The notes under the pieces: model-generated
Database searches by the model: none
What the model was told of the DNA's origin: nothing
The model's input: the letters and a program-made list of their open reading frames with translations, nothing else
From: an uncultured Paracoccaceae bacterium
GTDB taxonomy: Bacteria > Pseudomonadota > Alphaproteobacteria > Rhodobacterales > Rhodobacteraceae
NCBI GenBank assembly: GCA_938016515.1
Contig: CALILP010000214.1
Coordinates: 1-37,105, forward strand
DNA: 37,105 nucleotides
Reading direction: 5' to 3'
Translations under genes and position numbers: made by a program
Shown here: positions 23,979 to 32,363 of the stretch, in pieces
Numbering within the stretch: the stretch's first letter is position 1
How the letters are laid out: each line of letters opens with the position of its first letter

Positions 23979-24187
23979 CGGTAACCCACCGCACCCCGTG
24001 ACATCGTATCAAAAATCTGCGCCGTACCTAGCAGATCAGGGCCGGGACGCATCCTGATTCTGCCATTAGATTGGTTAATATGCCGTGATCTGTTGCGCAG
24101 ATGGTATCTGGGCGTCACTTGGCCATGCCTGATTGACCCTTGGCCCGCCCCCGCCTATTGACGCATCAACGACGAACGAGGGTGACG

Positions 24188-25114
24188 ATGGCCGATAAAC
24201 CGCGCAGTTTTCAGGAAATCATATTGCGGCTTCAGACCTACTGGGCAGGCAAAGGCTGCGCTGTGATGCAGCCTTACGATATGGAAGTGGGCGCAGGGAC
24301 ATTCCACCCGGCTACCACTCTGCGGTCATTGGGCAGCAAGCCTTGGGCTGCGGCCTACGTTCAGCCCTCCCGCCGTCCGACTGATGGACGCTACGGCGAG
24401 AACCCAAACCGTTTGCAGCACTATTACCAATACCAGGTCCTGATCAAACCCAGCCCACCTGATCTGCAGTATTTATACCTGGGATCTCTTGAAGCTATCG
24501 GCATCGACGCGGCCATGCACGACATCCGCTTTGTCGAGGATGACTGGGAAAGCCCGACGCTTGGGGCCTGGGGCCTTGGCTGGGAAGTTTGGTGCGATGG
24601 CATGGAAGTATCCCAGTTCACGTATTTTCAGCAGGTTGCGGGCTACGACTGCAAGCCTGTGTCGGGCGAGTTGACCTATGGGTTGGAACGTCTGGCAATG
24701 TATATCCTCGACATTGATCATGTGATGGACATGCCATTCAACGATCCGCAAACCCCGATTGCCCTGACCTATGGGGACATCTTCAAACAAACCGAGGAAG
24801 AATACGCGCGCTGGAACTTCGACGTGGCAGATACGGACACGCTTTTGCAGCACTTCAAGGACGCCGAGGCAGAATGTGCGCGCATTTTGGATCAGGACCA
24901 CATCGACCCCAAAACCGGCAAGCGCATCATCATGGCCCACCCGGCCTATGACCAAGCGATCAAAGCTAGCCATGTGTTCAACCTGCTGGACGCGCGCGGT
25001 GTGATCTCTGTCACCGAAAGGCAGTCTTACATTTTGCGGGTCAGGACGTTGACCAAAGCCTGCGCAGATGCCTTCGTACAAACGGCAGCCGCCGGGTTTG
25101 AGCCTGCGGCATGA
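24188..25114 (+). CDS. glyQ: Glycine--tRNA ligase alpha subunit
   Basis: [49 protein letters not shown]. Confidence 0.97.
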
Positions 25115-25641
25115 ACCCCGCTCGCCTTGTTATAGGAGCCCTCCTTTTGTCAGCATTACTTGCGGGCGCGGCCCTCTATTACCTTCAAATCTATGCCTAT
25201 TATGACGAAGTGGCACTGACCACGGAAGATGTGCAGCTGACCTCGATTTTCACCGGCGCGCCGGAACCGATCATGGTTGAAAACGTGCGGGCCATCGACG
25301 GTGACAGCAGCCCGCTCAAATTCCGGGCCTGTTTTGACACCAACCTGTCTTTTGGCCTGCTGACCGAAACCTATGAAGTCTACGAGGCCGCTGAACCCAC
25401 AATCGCCCCCCCTTGGTTCGACTGCTTTGACGCAGAACAGATTGGCGAAGATCTGGCCTCCGGGGTGGCCCTTGCCTTTATGGGGATCGAGAACTTCCAA
25501 TACGGGATCGACCGTGTGGTGGCCGTCTACCCCGATGGCACATCGTTTGCCTGGCACCAGATCAATGCGTGCGGCGAAGCTGCTTTTCACCGCGACCCTG
25601 TCCCCGACACCTGCCCACCGGCACCCGAAAGACTGCAATAA
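25111..25641 (+). CDS. Membrane-anchored hypothetical protein between glyQ and glyS (DUF6446-like by context)
   Basis: 176 aa; N-terminal [35 protein letters not shown] overlap with glyQ, TAATG overlap with glyS. Confidence 0.8.
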
Positions 25642-27869
25642 TGGCTGACTTACTGATCGAACTCTTCTCGGAAGAAATCCCGGCGCGGATGCAGGCGAAA
25701 GCCGCGTCTGATTTGCAAAAGCTGGTCACGGATGGGCTGGTCGAGGCGGGCTTGACCTATGCGGGTGCTGCGTCTTTTGCGACGCCGCGCCGGTTGGCTT
25801 TGTCTGTCGAAGGGCTGACTGCGCAAAGCAAGGCCGTGCGTGAAGAACGCAAGGGGCCATCGGTCTCTGCACCTGATAAAGCGGTTGAGGGCTTCATGCG
25901 CTCTGTCGGGTTGACCAAGGACCAGCTTGAGGTGCGTGAGGACAAGAAGGGTCAGGTCTATTTCGCGGTGATGCAAAAGCCGGGGCGTGCGGCGGCCGTG
26001 ATTATCGCAGAAGTGCTCGAACACGCGGTGCGGACTTTCCCTTGGCCCAAGTCGATGCGCTGGGGGACGGGGACGCTGAAGTGGGTGCGCCCGCTGCATT
26101 CCATCCTGTGCATTCTTTCCGATGAGGCCGGGGCCGAGGTCGTCCCGTTAAAGATCGACGGGATCGCGGCTGGCAATACGACACGCGGTCACCGCTTCAT
26201 GGCGCCGGACCCATTTTCTGTCACCTCTTTCGAGGATTACGAGGCGAAGTTAAAGCGCGCTAAGGTCGTTTTGCGCAGCGAAGAACGCCAAGACCTGATT
26301 TGGCAAGACGCGACTAATCAGGCATTTGCGCAAGGTTTGGAGATTGTCGAGGATCGCGGCCTTTTGGCGGAAGTTGCCAATCTGGTGGAATGGCCTGTGG
26401 TTTTGATGGGCACGATTGCCGAGGATTTCTTGGATATGCCGCCCGAAGTTTTGCAGACTTCGATGAAGGATCATCAGAAATTCTTTTCGCTGCGAAAATC
26501 AAAAACGGGCCGGATTGAGCGGTTTGTGACCGTCGCCAACATCGAGACCCCCGATAATGGCTCCACAATTCTGGCGGGGAACGAGAAGGTTCTGTTCGCC
26601 CGATTGTCCGATGCGAAGTTCTTTTGGGAGAACGATTTGCGCGTGGCGAAGGCGGGGATGGGCGAATGGGTCGATGGTCTTAAGTCCGTAACGTTCCACA
26701 ACAAGTTGGGGTCGCAGGCCGACCGGGTCGAACGGATTGTGGCCTTGGCCCGCGAGATTGCCCCGGTGGTTGGGGCTGACCCGGATGAGGCGGCTACGGC
26801 TGCGCGGGTGGCGAAGGCCGATCTGCAATCCGAGATGATCTATGAATTCCCTGAATTACAGGGGCTTATGGGGCGCTATTACGGTAAGGCGGCGGGGCTG
26901 TCTGCCGAGGTTGCGGCTGTGGCGGAGGAGCATTACGCGCCGTTGGGGCCGTCAGATGATGTGCCCACTGCGCCGTTGTCGGTGACGGTGGCATTGGCGG
27001 ATAAGCTGGACACACTGACCGGGTTCTGGGCGTACGATGAAAAACCTACGGGGTCAAAGGACCCGTTCGCACTGCGGAGAGCGGCGCTGGGGGTCATTCG
27101 GTTGGTAATAGAGAATGATCTGCAGGCACCAGTCAGAGTTACCTTGCTTCGCCTAATTGATGAGCATCGCACAAAAGCCATCGGTGAAGCACACCTTGAA
27201 AGTCTGGAAGAGATTTCAGACGCTCTTGAGCGGGCCGGACTAGACGAACAAGTTTCGAAAATCGTTGATGCAAAAACACAAGCTTTCCTCGAGGAACAGT
27301 TTGCTGAGGCTCGCGAAGAGGTCTTGGAGAGCGCTAAGCGTGCATTTTCGCTCCTCTCCTTCTTTCACGACCGCCTCAAAGTCTTCCTCAAAGACCAAGG
27401 CATCCGCCACGACATCATCGACGCTTGCATCGCCATGCCGGGCAATGACGACCTGACGCTCCTTGTGAAACGCGCCAAGGCGCTGTCGGAAACGCTGAAG
27501 ACCGATGATGGCGAGAACCTTCTCCAAGGTTTCAAGCGCGCCAACAACATTCTGACCCAAGCGGAAGAGAAAGATGGCGTCGCATACGAGTACGGCGCGG
27601 ACATCAAATTTGCCGAAACCGACAGCGAAAAGGCGCTCTTTACGGCCCTCGATGCTGCAGATGCAAAGATCGCACCGGCCATGGCGGCAGAGGATTTTAC
27701 CACTGCGATGACCGCGATGGCTGCACTACGTGGGCCGATTGATGCCTTCTTTGATGACGTGAAAATCAACGCGGACAGCGAGATCATCCGCCGAAACCGC
27801 CTTAATTTGTTGAGCCGTATCCGTACAATCTGCCTTTCTGTCGCTGATCTGACGCGGATCGAGGGATAA
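25641..27869 (+). CDS. glyS: Glycine--tRNA ligase beta subunit
   Basis: [28 protein letters not shown]...; SLRKSKTGRIERFVTVANIE; FFHDRLKVFLKDQGIRHDIIDA. Confidence 0.96.
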   Translation: MADLLIELFSEEIPARMQAKAASDLQKLVTDGLVEAGLTYAGAASFATPRRLALSVEGLTAQSKAVREERKGPSVSAPDKAVEGFMRSVGLTKDQLEVREDKKGQVYFAVMQKPGRAAAVIIAEVLEHAVRTFPWPKSMRWGTGTLKWVRPLHSILCILSDEAGAEVVPLKIDGIAAGNTTRGHRFMAPDPFSVTSFEDYEAKLKRAKVVLRSEERQDLIWQDATNQAFAQGLEIVEDRGLLAEVANLVEWPVVLMGTIAEDFLDMPPEVLQTSMKDHQKFFSLRKSKTGRIERFVTVANIETPDNGSTILAGNEKVLFARLSDAKFFWENDLRVAKAGMGEWVDGLKSVTFHNKLGSQADRVERIVALAREIAPVVGADPDEAATAARVAKADLQSEMIYEFPELQGLMGRYYGKAAGLSAEVAAVAEEHYAPLGPSDDVPTAPLSVTVALADKLDTLTGFWAYDEKPTGSKDPFALRRAALGVIRLVIENDLQAPVRVTLLRLIDEHRTKAIGEAHLESLEEISDALERAGLDEQVSKIVDAKTQAFLEEQFAEAREEVLESAKRAFSLLSFFHDRLKVFLKDQGIRHDIIDACIAMPGNDDLTLLVKRAKALSETLKTDDGENLLQGFKRANNILTQAEEKDGVAYEYGADIKFAETDSEKALFTALDAADAKIAPAMAAEDFTTAMTAMAALRGPIDAFFDDVKINADSEIIRRNRLNLLSRIRTICLSVADLTRIEG

Positions 27870-27902
27870 TCCGCCCAGACTGTCACGTTTCCTTTACACA
27901 TG

Positions 27903-27929
27903 CGCCTGCAACCCCCTATGTTGCAGGCG
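27903..27929 (+). promoter_or_regulatory. 9-bp perfect hairpin in the PPDK-like gene leader
   Basis: CGCCTGCAA ccccctatg TTGCAGGCG. Confidence 0.6.
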
Positions 27930-27947
27930 AATAGAAGGAATGCCGCA

Positions 27948-30530
27948 GTGCAGCAGCAGAACCCGTACCAGCCGATCACGCTGATCACACCCACGGCCCA
28001 GATGGCCGCTGATGTGCACGGTGGTCGTGCCAAATGTCTGCAACGTCTGATCCGGCTGGATATGCCCGTACCCACAACGGTCGCATTGTCCTTTGATGCG
28101 GTGCATCAGATCGCCAAGGGCCAAATGCCCGATATGGATGATATCCTGCGCAATTTTGTGGATGGCATGCTGTTGTCGATCCGCCCATCCAGTCAGGACC
28201 CCGATTGGGGTGGACCGGGCGCGATCTTGAATATTGGCATGAACGCCGAAAAGCATGCCGCCTTGTGCGACCGGATTGGCGAGGGGCCAGCGACGCGTCT
28301 CTATCTGCATTTCGTACAATCCTACGCCGTCCATGTGCACAGGCTTGACCCAGAGGCGTTTGAGACTCCGGATGCTACCGACACCGAGGCCTTGCAGAAT
28401 GCGCTTGAGGCCTATGAGTTTGAAACCGACGAGGTGTTCCCATCTGACCCTGCTGTTCAGCTGAAAGAAGCCCTGCGCTCTATGGCCCGTGCCTGGGATG
28501 GCACAACCGCGCGGTTGCTGCGCGAAGCCAAAGGTGCCCCTGTGGATGCCGGTCTGGGCTTGGTTGTGCAGGCGATGGTGATGGGCCTTGGCACTGGCGA
28601 ATGCGGCGCTGGGAATATCCAGTATGTGAACAGCGATACGGGTCTGCCCCAGATCACTGGCCGCTATATTCCCCAAAGCCAGCGCCGTCGTGCGTTAATG
28701 GATGATGAACGGGCCATGTTCCTGACGAAAGACCCCCGTGGGGCCTCTTTGGAAGAGCAGGCCCCCGAGGTCTTTACCCAGCTTGCTGCCCTTGGCGATG
28801 TCTGCCGCCGAAAGTTGCGCGAAGAGATGATCGTCGAGTTTACTGTCGAATCCGGTGTGCTGTGGATTTTGGACGCCGTCCGGGTGCCCCGTGCTTCGCG
28901 CGCTGCTGTCCGGATTGCCGTGGCTTTGGCCAGCGACAAGATCATTCCCCGCGAAGAAGCTGTAATGCGGGTGCAGCCTGCTGCCTTGAATGAGTTGCTG
29001 CACCGCCAGGTTGACCCGATGGCCCCCCGCGATTTGGTTGTGAAAGGGATTGCCGCCAGCCCCGGTGCTGCGGCAGGTCGATTGGTGTTTACGTCTCAGG
29101 ATGCCCAAGCCAGTGCTGCACGTGGCGAGCCTTGCGTTCTGGTCCGCCGCGAAACAACGCCTGAAGACATCCGTGGAATGCATGCCGCCCAAGCTGTCCT
29201 GACTGTGCGCGGCGGGGTGACGAGCCACGCTGCTGTGATCGGTCGTGGTTTGGGTTTGCCTTGCGTCGTGGGTGCCTCTGCCTTGCGGATCAACACGAAG
29301 CGCCGTCAGATTGCTGTGCCCGATGGTCGTGTGCTGACCGATGGTGATATCGTGACCGTTGATGGCACAACCGGACAGGTGCTGCTGGGCGAAGTTCCTA
29401 TGCTGGAAGCCGCCCTCGATGATGCCTTCCAGACGTTGCTGACCTGGGCTGATGATATGCGTGATATTGGTGTGCGTGCCAATGCCGACACACCCACCGA
29501 TGCCCAAACCGCCCGCAACTTTGCCGCTGAGGGCATCGGGTTGTGCCGGACCGAGCATATGTTCTTTGAAGGTGACCGTCTGGGTGTCATGCGCGAGATG
29601 ATCTTTGCCGATAATGCCGATGACAGGCGTGCTGTGCTGGATCGTTTGATGCCGATGCAGCGGGCTGACTTTGCTGCATTGTTCGAGATCATGGCCGGTC
29701 TGCCCGTATGCATTCGTTTGTTTGACCCCCCCTTGCACGAGTTTCTGCCTGCTGATCGGGCTGGCCTGCGTGATCTGTCAGAGCAGTTGGCCTTGCCATT
29801 GGCCGAAGTGACAGAGCGGGTCGCCGCCCTGGCTGAATACAACCCAATGCTGGGGATGCGCGGTGTGCGTCTGGGGATCGCCATCCCCGAGATTTATGAG
29901 ATGCAGGCTCAGGCTATCTTTGAAGCGACCGTTGACGCCCATGAGCGTGGGGCCACCGTTGCCCCCGAGATCATGATCCCCGTTGTCAGTGCCATGCGTG
30001 AAGTTGAGCTGGTCAAATCGCGGATCGATGCTGTTGCTGCGTCGGTCAGTGCTGCCCGATTGCATGACTTTGATTATAAGCTGGGTGTGATGGTGGAAAC
30101 GCCGCGCGCTGCATTGCGTGCTCAGGATATCGCCCAGCATGCCGAGTTTCTGTCCTTTGGGACGAACGATCTGACGCAGATGACATATGGCTTGTCACGC
30201 GATGATGCTGGCCGTTTCATGTCCTCTTATGTCCAGCAGGGCGTCTACGAAGAGGATCCTTTCCACAGTCTGGACATTGAAGGAGTGGGCGAATTGCTGT
30301 CGATTGGCGCCGCGCGGGGCAGATTGGGTCGACACAATATCACCCTGTCGTTGTGCGGCGAGCATGGTGGTACACGTTCTGCGATTGGCTTTTGTCGCGC
30401 GCAGGGGTTTGATTACGTCTCTTGTTCGCCTTTTCGGGTCCCGGTTGCGCGGCTTTCCGCCGCTCAGCTGACCTTAGAGGACAAGTTAGGCAGCACTCAT
30501 TTAGGTAAGAAACGCCTCTCAACCACATGA
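27948..30530 (+). CDS. Pyruvate, phosphate dikinase-like / PEP-binding protein with divergent ATP-grasp domain
   Basis: Intact LTVRGGVTSHAAVIGRG, GIGLCRTEHMFFE, SFGTNDLTQMTYGLSRDDAG, CGEHGG; GTG start with GAAGGA upstream preferred over 27900. Confidence 0.88.
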   Translation: MQQQNPYQPITLITPTAQMAADVHGGRAKCLQRLIRLDMPVPTTVALSFDAVHQIAKGQMPDMDDILRNFVDGMLLSIRPSSQDPDWGGPGAILNIGMNAEKHAALCDRIGEGPATRLYLHFVQSYAVHVHRLDPEAFETPDATDTEALQNALEAYEFETDEVFPSDPAVQLKEALRSMARAWDGTTARLLREAKGAPVDAGLGLVVQAMVMGLGTGECGAGNIQYVNSDTGLPQITGRYIPQSQRRRALMDDERAMFLTKDPRGASLEEQAPEVFTQLAALGDVCRRKLREEMIVEFTVESGVLWILDAVRVPRASRAAVRIAVALASDKIIPREEAVMRVQPAALNELLHRQVDPMAPRDLVVKGIAASPGAAAGRLVFTSQDAQASAARGEPCVLVRRETTPEDIRGMHAAQAVLTVRGGVTSHAAVIGRGLGLPCVVGASALRINTKRRQIAVPDGRVLTDGDIVTVDGTTGQVLLGEVPMLEAALDDAFQTLLTWADDMRDIGVRANADTPTDAQTARNFAAEGIGLCRTEHMFFEGDRLGVMREMIFADNADDRRAVLDRLMPMQRADFAALFEIMAGLPVCIRLFDPPLHEFLPADRAGLRDLSEQLALPLAEVTERVAALAEYNPMLGMRGVRLGIAIPEIYEMQAQAIFEATVDAHERGATVAPEIMIPVVSAMREVELVKSRIDAVAASVSAARLHDFDYKLGVMVETPRAALRAQDIAQHAEFLSFGTNDLTQMTYGLSRDDAGRFMSSYVQQGVYEEDPFHSLDIEGVGELLSIGAARGRLGRHNITLSLCGEHGGTRSAIGFCRAQGFDYVSCSPFRVPVARLSAAQLTLEDKLGSTHLGKKRLSTT

Positions 30531-31445: not shown

Positions 31446-32363
31446 ATGACTAACGACATACACCTTGCCTTTGCGCATCCCTCTGAACGCGCAGCCGCCA
31501 GCACTGACATGCCATATGATCGCATTTCGGTACGCGACTACACCGTTGAGGTTGAGATTGGTGCGTTTCAGGCAGAGCGGGGGACATTGCAGCGGGTCCG
31601 CTTCAATGTCGTGGTTGAGGTATTGCCGATTGCTGATCCGCTAGAGGACGATGTGGACCGCATCTTGTCCTATGACAAGGTCACCGAGGCCATTACGCTG
31701 GAATTGCAGGCAGAGCGGATCAACCTGCTGGAAACCCTTGCCGCCCGCGTCGCCGAACGCATCCTGATGGAGCCGCAGCCGGAACGTGTTTTTGTGCGTA
31801 TCGAAAAGCTGGATCGCGGCCCATTTGCTTTGGGCGTCGAAATCGTGCGCGCCCGCGATGGTGCAACCCCCGCCGCACAGGATCACGTCGAAACTCCGCA
31901 CCCTCGCGTTGTCTATCTGGCGAATGCGATGATCCACGCAGACGGTCTGTCGCAATGGATTGATACGCTGGTGGCAGATGATGGCCCTTTGATTTTTTGC
32001 GTCGGTGCAGGTGACACTGCTGCCCCCCAAACCGGCCACACAATGACCCAGCGCCGTGTTGATTTGCTGGCCATCGAACAAAACGCTTGGGTGCTTGCTG
32101 CCCGCGACCATCGCTGCAAGGTCGTCGAGACCCGGACAGAGTTGGATTGGGCCATGAAGAACGGTCAGATCTGCGTCTGGGCCCCGTCAAAGATTGTGCT
32201 GGACGCGGTAGATGGCGCCTCTGCCGGTCCGCGAGAGCCTGCCGCCTTGGCAAGCTGGTTCGCCGCCGAAATGCAGGCCGCAGAGTTGTTGGTCGTTGGG
32301 GCAGAGGCCCCGGCTGCAACGGTTCCCGTCCGCGCAATTGCCGTCAGAGACACCATAACATGA
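31446..32363 (+). CDS. folB: Dihydroneopterin aldolase with about 170-aa C-terminal extension (amino-acid-kinase-like?)
   Basis: N-terminal FolB: YDRISVRDYTVEVEIGAFQAERG...SYDKVTEAI...LLETLAARVAERIL; ATGA overlap with folP. Confidence 0.82.
   Translation: MTNDIHLAFAHPSERAAASTDMPYDRISVRDYTVEVEIGAFQAERGTLQRVRFNVVVEVLPIADPLEDDVDRILSYDKVTEAITLELQAERINLLETLAARVAERILMEPQPERVFVRIEKLDRGPFALGVEIVRARDGATPAAQDHVETPHPRVVYLANAMIHADGLSQWIDTLVADDGPLIFCVGAGDTAAPQTGHTMTQRRVDLLAIEQNAWVLAARDHRCKVVETRTELDWAMKNGQICVWAPSKIVLDAVDGASAGPREPAALASWFAAEMQAAELLVVGAEAPAATVPVRAIAVRDTIT

Follow-up and report, generated by a model that had tools for sequence, protein, structure and literature searches.

A PPDK-like protein of Rhodobacteraceae with a remodelled nucleotide half and intact phosphohistidine and PEP/pyruvate domains

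The locus and the encoded protein

We analysed a stretch of 37,105 nucleotides (the window), contig CALILP010000214.1 of an uncultured Paracoccaceae bacterium (assembly GCA_938016515.1). Its source genome is estimated to be 81% complete. The forward strand carries at 27948-30530 an open reading frame of 860 amino acids with a GTG start, and its product is PPDK-like. The nucleotide half of the protein is altered, and the phosphohistidine and PEP halves are canonical. The ribosome-binding site AGAAGGA (27933-27939) lies ahead of the GTG at 27948. A comparison of upstream regions detected a promoter-like site on the same strand (27893-27922), between glyS and the PPDK-like gene. It consists of TTTACA (27893-27898) and TATGTT (27917-27922), separated by 18 nucleotides. 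The elements TTTAC and TATGCT are found again upstream of the gene in many relatives of the same genus. This recurring element suggests that the PPDK-like gene may be transcribed separately from glyS. A perfect 10-bp inverted repeat (27903-27929) overlaps the -10 region. It is absent from the relatives, which rules out a conserved upstream hairpin.

Two forward-strand genes precede the PPDK-like gene. The first is glyQ (24140-25114; NCBIfam NF006827), an ancestral neighbour by synteny. The second, glyS (25641-27869; TIGR00211), is directly upstream, as in canonical alphaproteobacterial ppdK loci. A DUF6446 protein of unknown function sits between them at 25111-25641. The Rhodobacteraceae loci that we checked have this gene at about the same place; in the canonical outgroup loci we did not detect it. 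At 31446-32363 the window encodes a FolB-like protein of about 305 amino acids. Only its residues 27-126 match FolB, and its C-terminal 180 residues matched no Pfam family.

Pfam recognized two domains in the PPDK-like protein. They are the PEP-utilizers mobile domain, which is the central phosphohistidine domain (PF00391; 29022-29399, forward strand), and the PEP/pyruvate-binding domain (PF02896; 29412-30485, forward strand). The N-terminal 370 residues remained blank. There, PPDK_N (PF01326) gave no match at E<=1, and the canonical PPDK of a rhizobial genome (L050) reached 185 bits. The score of this model falls from those 185 bits to 19-27 bits or none in partly eroded forms of the family, and to none in eroded forms. 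The AlphaFold model nevertheless predicts a folded ATP-grasp-like domain in this region (27957-28934, forward strand; residues 20-345 of an 876-aa reading). The model is confident over its whole length (mean pLDDT 89.5), and most of the N-domain is at or above 90. Foldseek assigned the model to the PPDK fold (E 5e-78), and a sequence search of the PDB matched PPDK chains at E ~1e-185. The position of the His domain in the model was dropped as a sign of altered docking. A canonical control model also places it at the PEP domain.

The protein was also compared with curated family models. With the PPDK equivalog TIGR01828 it scored 796.3 bits, below the cut-off of 843.45. It was also below the cut-offs for PEP synthase (TIGR01418; 140 bits against 739.75) and PTS Enzyme I (TIGR01417; 125 bits against 341.7, with only the shared His/PEP parts matching). 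By these function-defining tests the protein is not a PPDK, yet it is derived from PPDK. It likely works like the PEP half of that enzyme.

Amino acid substitutions in the ATP half

Residues are numbered as in Clostridium symbiosum PPDK, from a reference sequence that agrees with the PDB chain. All positions below are on the forward strand. An earlier note on this DNA, made from one genome, had quoted a series of motifs, and every one of them is present in the reading frame. Compared with C. symbiosum, the window protein presents the substitutions K22R, G94S, P100W, M103P, E271R, E279R, D321I, Q335D and R337V. It conserves R92, Q240 and E323 in the ATP-grasp half.

The first substitution lies in HGGRAKCLQRL (28017-28049), where K22 is arginine. 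Among 115 eroded relatives, 113 have arginine at this position, one has lysine and one has a gap. The phosphate loop SIRPSSQDPDWGGP (28176-28217) keeps R92. In this loop G94S and P100W are fixed, and M102G and M103P are nearly fixed. From 28176 it reads SIRPSSQ, for which the earlier note gave SVRSGA as the canonical form. The altered motif GECGAGNIQYVNSDTG, quoted in the same note, occupies 28596-28643. E271R (114 of 115 relatives) and E279R are found in GRYIPQSQRRRAL (28659-28697). Finally, LWILDAVRVPR (28860-28892; noted canonical form LYFLQTRNGKR) contains Q335D, shared by 115/115, and R337V. Across the 115 eroded sequences Q335D, P100W and G94S are fixed, as are the conserved R92 and Q240. 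R337 is mostly valine, R135 is usually kept and E323 is mostly kept. One quoted wording, SQRRRAL, is correct for the window and partly species-specific; most relatives read SQGRDAL.

The other half of the protein is well preserved. The phosphohistidine motif GGVTSHAAV lies at 29211-29237. Its histidine is encoded at 29226-29228, and the H455 equivalent is invariant. The mid-domain motif GIGLCRTEHMFFE is at 29532-29570, and the PEP/pyruvate domain presents SFGTNDLTQM (30153-30182) and CGEHGG (30354-30371). Equivalents of H455, T453, R561, R617, E745, N768, D769 and C831 are all there. H455, R561, E745, N768, D769 and C831 are fixed in the 115 eroded sequences. The two Pfam matches and these residues bear out the claim that the phosphohistidine and PEP/pyruvate domains are intact.

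The same division is seen in the columns that are invariant in canonical PPDK. The nucleotide domain has 113 of them; 28 are kept, 73 are relaxed and 12 have switched to another residue and become fixed. A further 17 columns are newly fixed. Several of the switched and newly fixed columns have Arg, Trp, Gly or Asp at or near old ATP-site positions. The PEP domain has kept 111 of its 134 columns (22 relaxed, one switched and fixed). In the central domain, four of 41 are relaxed and two are switched and fixed.

A loss of ATP chemistry in the eroded proteins is well supported, as judged from their residues. The statement that the expected ATP-site Glu, Gln and Arg are missing holds for Q335, R337 and E279, and D321 and K22 are replaced as well. 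It does not hold for R92, Q240 and E323. With these three kept, and usually R135, the protein may still bind nucleotide or phosphate to some extent. Nor did the alignment recover the catalytic residues at shifted positions. Q335 is aspartate in all 115 relatives, and the arginine at column 338 is a neighbour of R337 rather than its equivalent and is missing from some relatives.

Distribution, origin and selection in Rhodobacteraceae

The Rhodobacteraceae are a family of marine and soil bacteria. We searched 299 of their genomes, essentially one per genus, with the TIGR01828 profile. A PPDK homologue is present in 294/299 genera, nearly always as one copy per genome. The scores are about 720-924 bits (about 820-924 among the matches listed, with one at 1091), and only one genus shows a canonical-level score. 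Other alphaproteobacteria, in a class-wide sample, score 1030-1430 and mostly 1280-1430, with almost none below 1030 unless truncated. The gap between the two groups is clear, and the pattern is far beyond chance. In nine of these other alphaproteobacteria the PPDK matches cover only about model positions 2-529. They contain the ATP and His parts and no PEP domain, a VadK-like architecture. Five Rhodobacteraceae genera (G148, G154, G175, G179 and G340) are without any full-length PPDK-like gene and represent natural knock-outs.

The first set of sequences that we read comprised 74 fully eroded members, including close relatives within the window genus, five partly eroded members and one canonical member. 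Later sets added 40 more genera, two plasmid-borne copies and ten low scorers or carriers of the PPDK/PEPS regulatory protein RP, picked as likely exceptions. All of the approximately 130 altered members retain the examined His/PEP residues. In the ten chosen outliers, the ATP residues vary freely and every covered His/PEP residue is kept. Genome G090 carries the fully eroded form. The observation made in one genome therefore extends to essentially the whole family. The earlier note had proposed looking for a second, canonical ppdK. The window's own genome has none, a weak result at 81% completeness, and the other 36 genomes of the same genus have none. With a single match in nearly all of the 299 genera as well, we rejected a second canonical PPDK as the carrier of the function.

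Strain La 6 has a second and more altered copy, ppdK_2, on plasmid pLA6_002 (CP031587.1, 49965-52487). This rare paralogue has also lost R92, Q240, R135 and E323, and it keeps all His/PEP residues. Genome G269 carries an identical gene in addition to its chromosomal copy. The ppdK_2 gene adjoins genes for formate dehydrogenase, folA/folB-like proteins, PEP carboxylase and a succinyl-CoA-ligase-like protein. One plasmid neighbour is a homologue of the window FolB-like protein over nearly its full length (43%). This setting recalls one-carbon (serine-cycle) metabolism, which we regard as a lead and not as a result.

A tree was inferred from the central and PEP domains alone and is thus independent of the N-domain trait. 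Eroded and partly eroded forms make one group. The single canonical copy of the family branches first, on a long branch and loosely placed, and the partly eroded forms follow. The order glyQ-glyS-ppdK is also that of canonical loci in several other alphaproteobacteria and in some more distant bacteria. Since the order at the altered loci matches these, the ancestral gene changed in place. The erosion had a single origin at the ancestral glyQ-glyS-ppdK locus; synteny and the single-origin tree rule out a horizontally acquired paralogue. G94S and E271R are already present in each of the five partly eroded forms. These forms still conserve K22, and three of the five conserve E279. This suggests that the domain interface and the phosphate loop may have been altered before most nucleotide ligands were lost.

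In close pairs, the median dN/dS of the altered N-domain is 0.057, compared with 0.109 in canonical PPDK; the PEP domain has 0.035. Across all domains of the altered protein, ω is about 0.04-0.06. These figures are rough, with dS near saturation in several pairs, and constraint is still shown. Together with the retention in 294/299 genera, they rule out a decaying pseudogene. The altered N-domain is under purifying selection and has acquired new fixed residues; it has been rebuilt and is not in decay. The term "eroded" used in the earlier note is only half right, and "remodelled" describes the domain better.

Possible role and comparison with known systems

PEPCK and pyruvate kinase are present in 101/101 genomes sampled, with one PEPCK gene broken. 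This rules out the altered protein as a stand-in for either enzyme. A takeover by PEP synthase was discarded too, with only 59/299 genomes above the cut-off. 13C labelling found that PEP formation from pyruvate is inactive in vivo in D. shibae and P. gallaeciensis, both of which have ppdK by annotation (PMC2761930). R. denitrificans showed a weak pyruvate-to-PEP flux and low ppdK expression (PMC2749216). The labelling evidence covers growth on glucose or pyruvate; on glucose, a canonical PPDK can be inactive too.

The regulatory protein RP (PF03618) occurs in 12/299 Rhodobacteraceae genera and is absent from the main clade. Eleven of these 12 belong to the dozen genomes whose deep-branching PPDK forms score best (Fisher p ~4e-18, kinship uncorrected). 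Most RP-carrying genomes lack PEP synthase, and a canonical PPDK occurs in G109 only. In the others, the likely target of RP is therefore the altered protein itself.

Contrary to its label, the PPDK-like protein probably does not act as an enzyme of energy metabolism. The earlier note had offered a PEP-dependent phosphotransfer protein or a regulatory pseudoenzyme. The intact PEP/His half, the rewritten ATP half and the near absence of any other PPDK in the family are consistent with this proposal; the activity itself is a prediction from residues. By homology with PPDK, the half-reaction PEP + His -> pyruvate + phospho-His should still proceed. With the ATP site rewritten, the phosphoryl group on the histidine must go elsewhere or serve as a signal.

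Our preferred reading, held with moderate confidence, is an ATP-independent, PEP-charged phosphohistidine protein that acts as a sensor or relay at the PEP/pyruvate node. An ordinary ppdK would have been converted in place in the ancestor of most Rhodobacteraceae. PEP would bind the intact C-terminal barrel and pass its phosphoryl group to the swivelling histidine, with release of pyruvate. At high pyruvate the reaction would run backwards, and the charge state of the histidine would read out the PEP:pyruvate ratio. The remodelled N-domain would neither make nor use ATP. It might instead read the charge state, or bind an effector or partner, and so act as a regulator or relay at this node. The sensing or relay output is what we infer for the altered protein. 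Two observations count against such a role: the gene still has just its ancestral neighbours, and five sampled genera live without it.

Alternatively, the protein could be a new metabolic phosphotransferase. Its PEP-charged histidine would then pass the phosphoryl group on to a new acceptor, either a small molecule or a protein, bound in the rebuilt N-domain (PEP + X -> pyruvate + X-P), in the manner of Enzyme I and HPr. The strong conservation of this domain, with 12 columns switched and fixed and another 17 newly fixed, and its confident AlphaFold fold would agree with an acceptor site. However, no substrate gene is linked to the locus. Moreover, E271R and R219T/S are at positions of an engineered PPDK (2R82; R219E/E271R/S262D) in which the His domain is positioned at the PEP domain, away from the nucleotide domain (PMC5371819). 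E271R is an early change, found in 5/5 partly eroded forms. Together with R219T/S and the S262D of the window protein, it fits a His domain that does not serve its own nucleotide domain. Because of this fit we prefer the sensor or relay, and we regard transfer to an N-domain acceptor as the less likely reading.

A still-working PPDK, with its ATP site rebuilt from other residues or using another nucleotide or pyrophosphate, is improbable. R92, Q240, R135 and E323 are mostly kept, K22R is conservative, and RP persists in some deep-branching genomes that have an eroded form and neither canonical PPDK nor PEP synthase. Against this, the protein has lost Q335, R337, E279 and D321, the main clade lacks RP, the reaction is not needed where PEPCK and pyruvate kinase are both present, and 13C labelling detected no PEP made from pyruvate (PMC2761930). 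A catalytically dead relic or purely structural protein would explain the loss of one active site and of the gene in five genera, and it is very improbable given the low ω in all domains, the retention in nearly all genera and the invariant His/PEP residues even in the most divergent copies.

A family-wide altered PPDK is apparently undescribed in the open literature searched, which likewise held no biochemistry for the clade and no Tn-seq statement on the gene. Annotations of model roseobacters name the gene ppdK, SPO1359 being an example. In a metabolic model of D. shibae, the PPDK reaction runs backwards in all simulated states. Should the ATP half be dead, such models and the proposed PPDK-based route of CO2 assimilation need correcting, and the puzzling lack of pyruvate-to-PEP flux is simply explained. 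The series from canonical to partly eroded to fully rebuilt forms within one family lets the conversion of a dikinase be tested. More tentatively than the sensor or relay itself, we suggest a new PEP-driven signalling or phosphotransfer protein, spread throughout an ecologically dominant family, that reuses the old ATP-grasp domain as a ligand or partner site. It would be a counterpart of VadK and a control point of roseobacter carbon metabolism.

Compared with PPDK (TIGR01828; C. symbiosum 1KBL/1DIK), the protein shares the whole fold (TM ~0.7-0.85), the phosphohistidine and PEP/pyruvate domains with their catalytic residues, and the gene order glyQ-glyS-ppdK. It differs by the replacement of K22, G94, P100, M103, E271, E279, D321, Q335 and R337, by its score under the TIGR01828 cut-off, and by the absence of RP from most of the family. 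The PPDK mutants R337A (2DIK), K22A (1JDE) and 2R82 were altered at positions that have also changed naturally, by R337V, K22R, E271R, R219T and, for the window protein, S262D. The natural changes, unlike those of the mutants, are mostly fixed family-wide and are combined. With PTS Enzyme I and PtsP it shares the chemistry of the PEP-to-His half-reaction and a homologous PEP domain. However, it has no HPr-binding domain and carries a remodelled ATP-grasp fold at its N-terminus; the source genome has a separate ptsP-like gene. VadK (Rv1127c) of M. tuberculosis has a regulatory function and also derives from PPDK; its ATP and His domains remain, its PEP domain is gone, and it phosphorylates itself with ATP (PMC13400623). 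VadK shows that such a conversion of PPDK has occurred elsewhere. Both proteins descend from PPDK and would have been retained for regulation or phosphotransfer after one half-reaction was lost. Nevertheless, the architecture of the window protein is the opposite of VadK. It is a mirror image, in which the ATP site was lost and the PEP/His half was kept.
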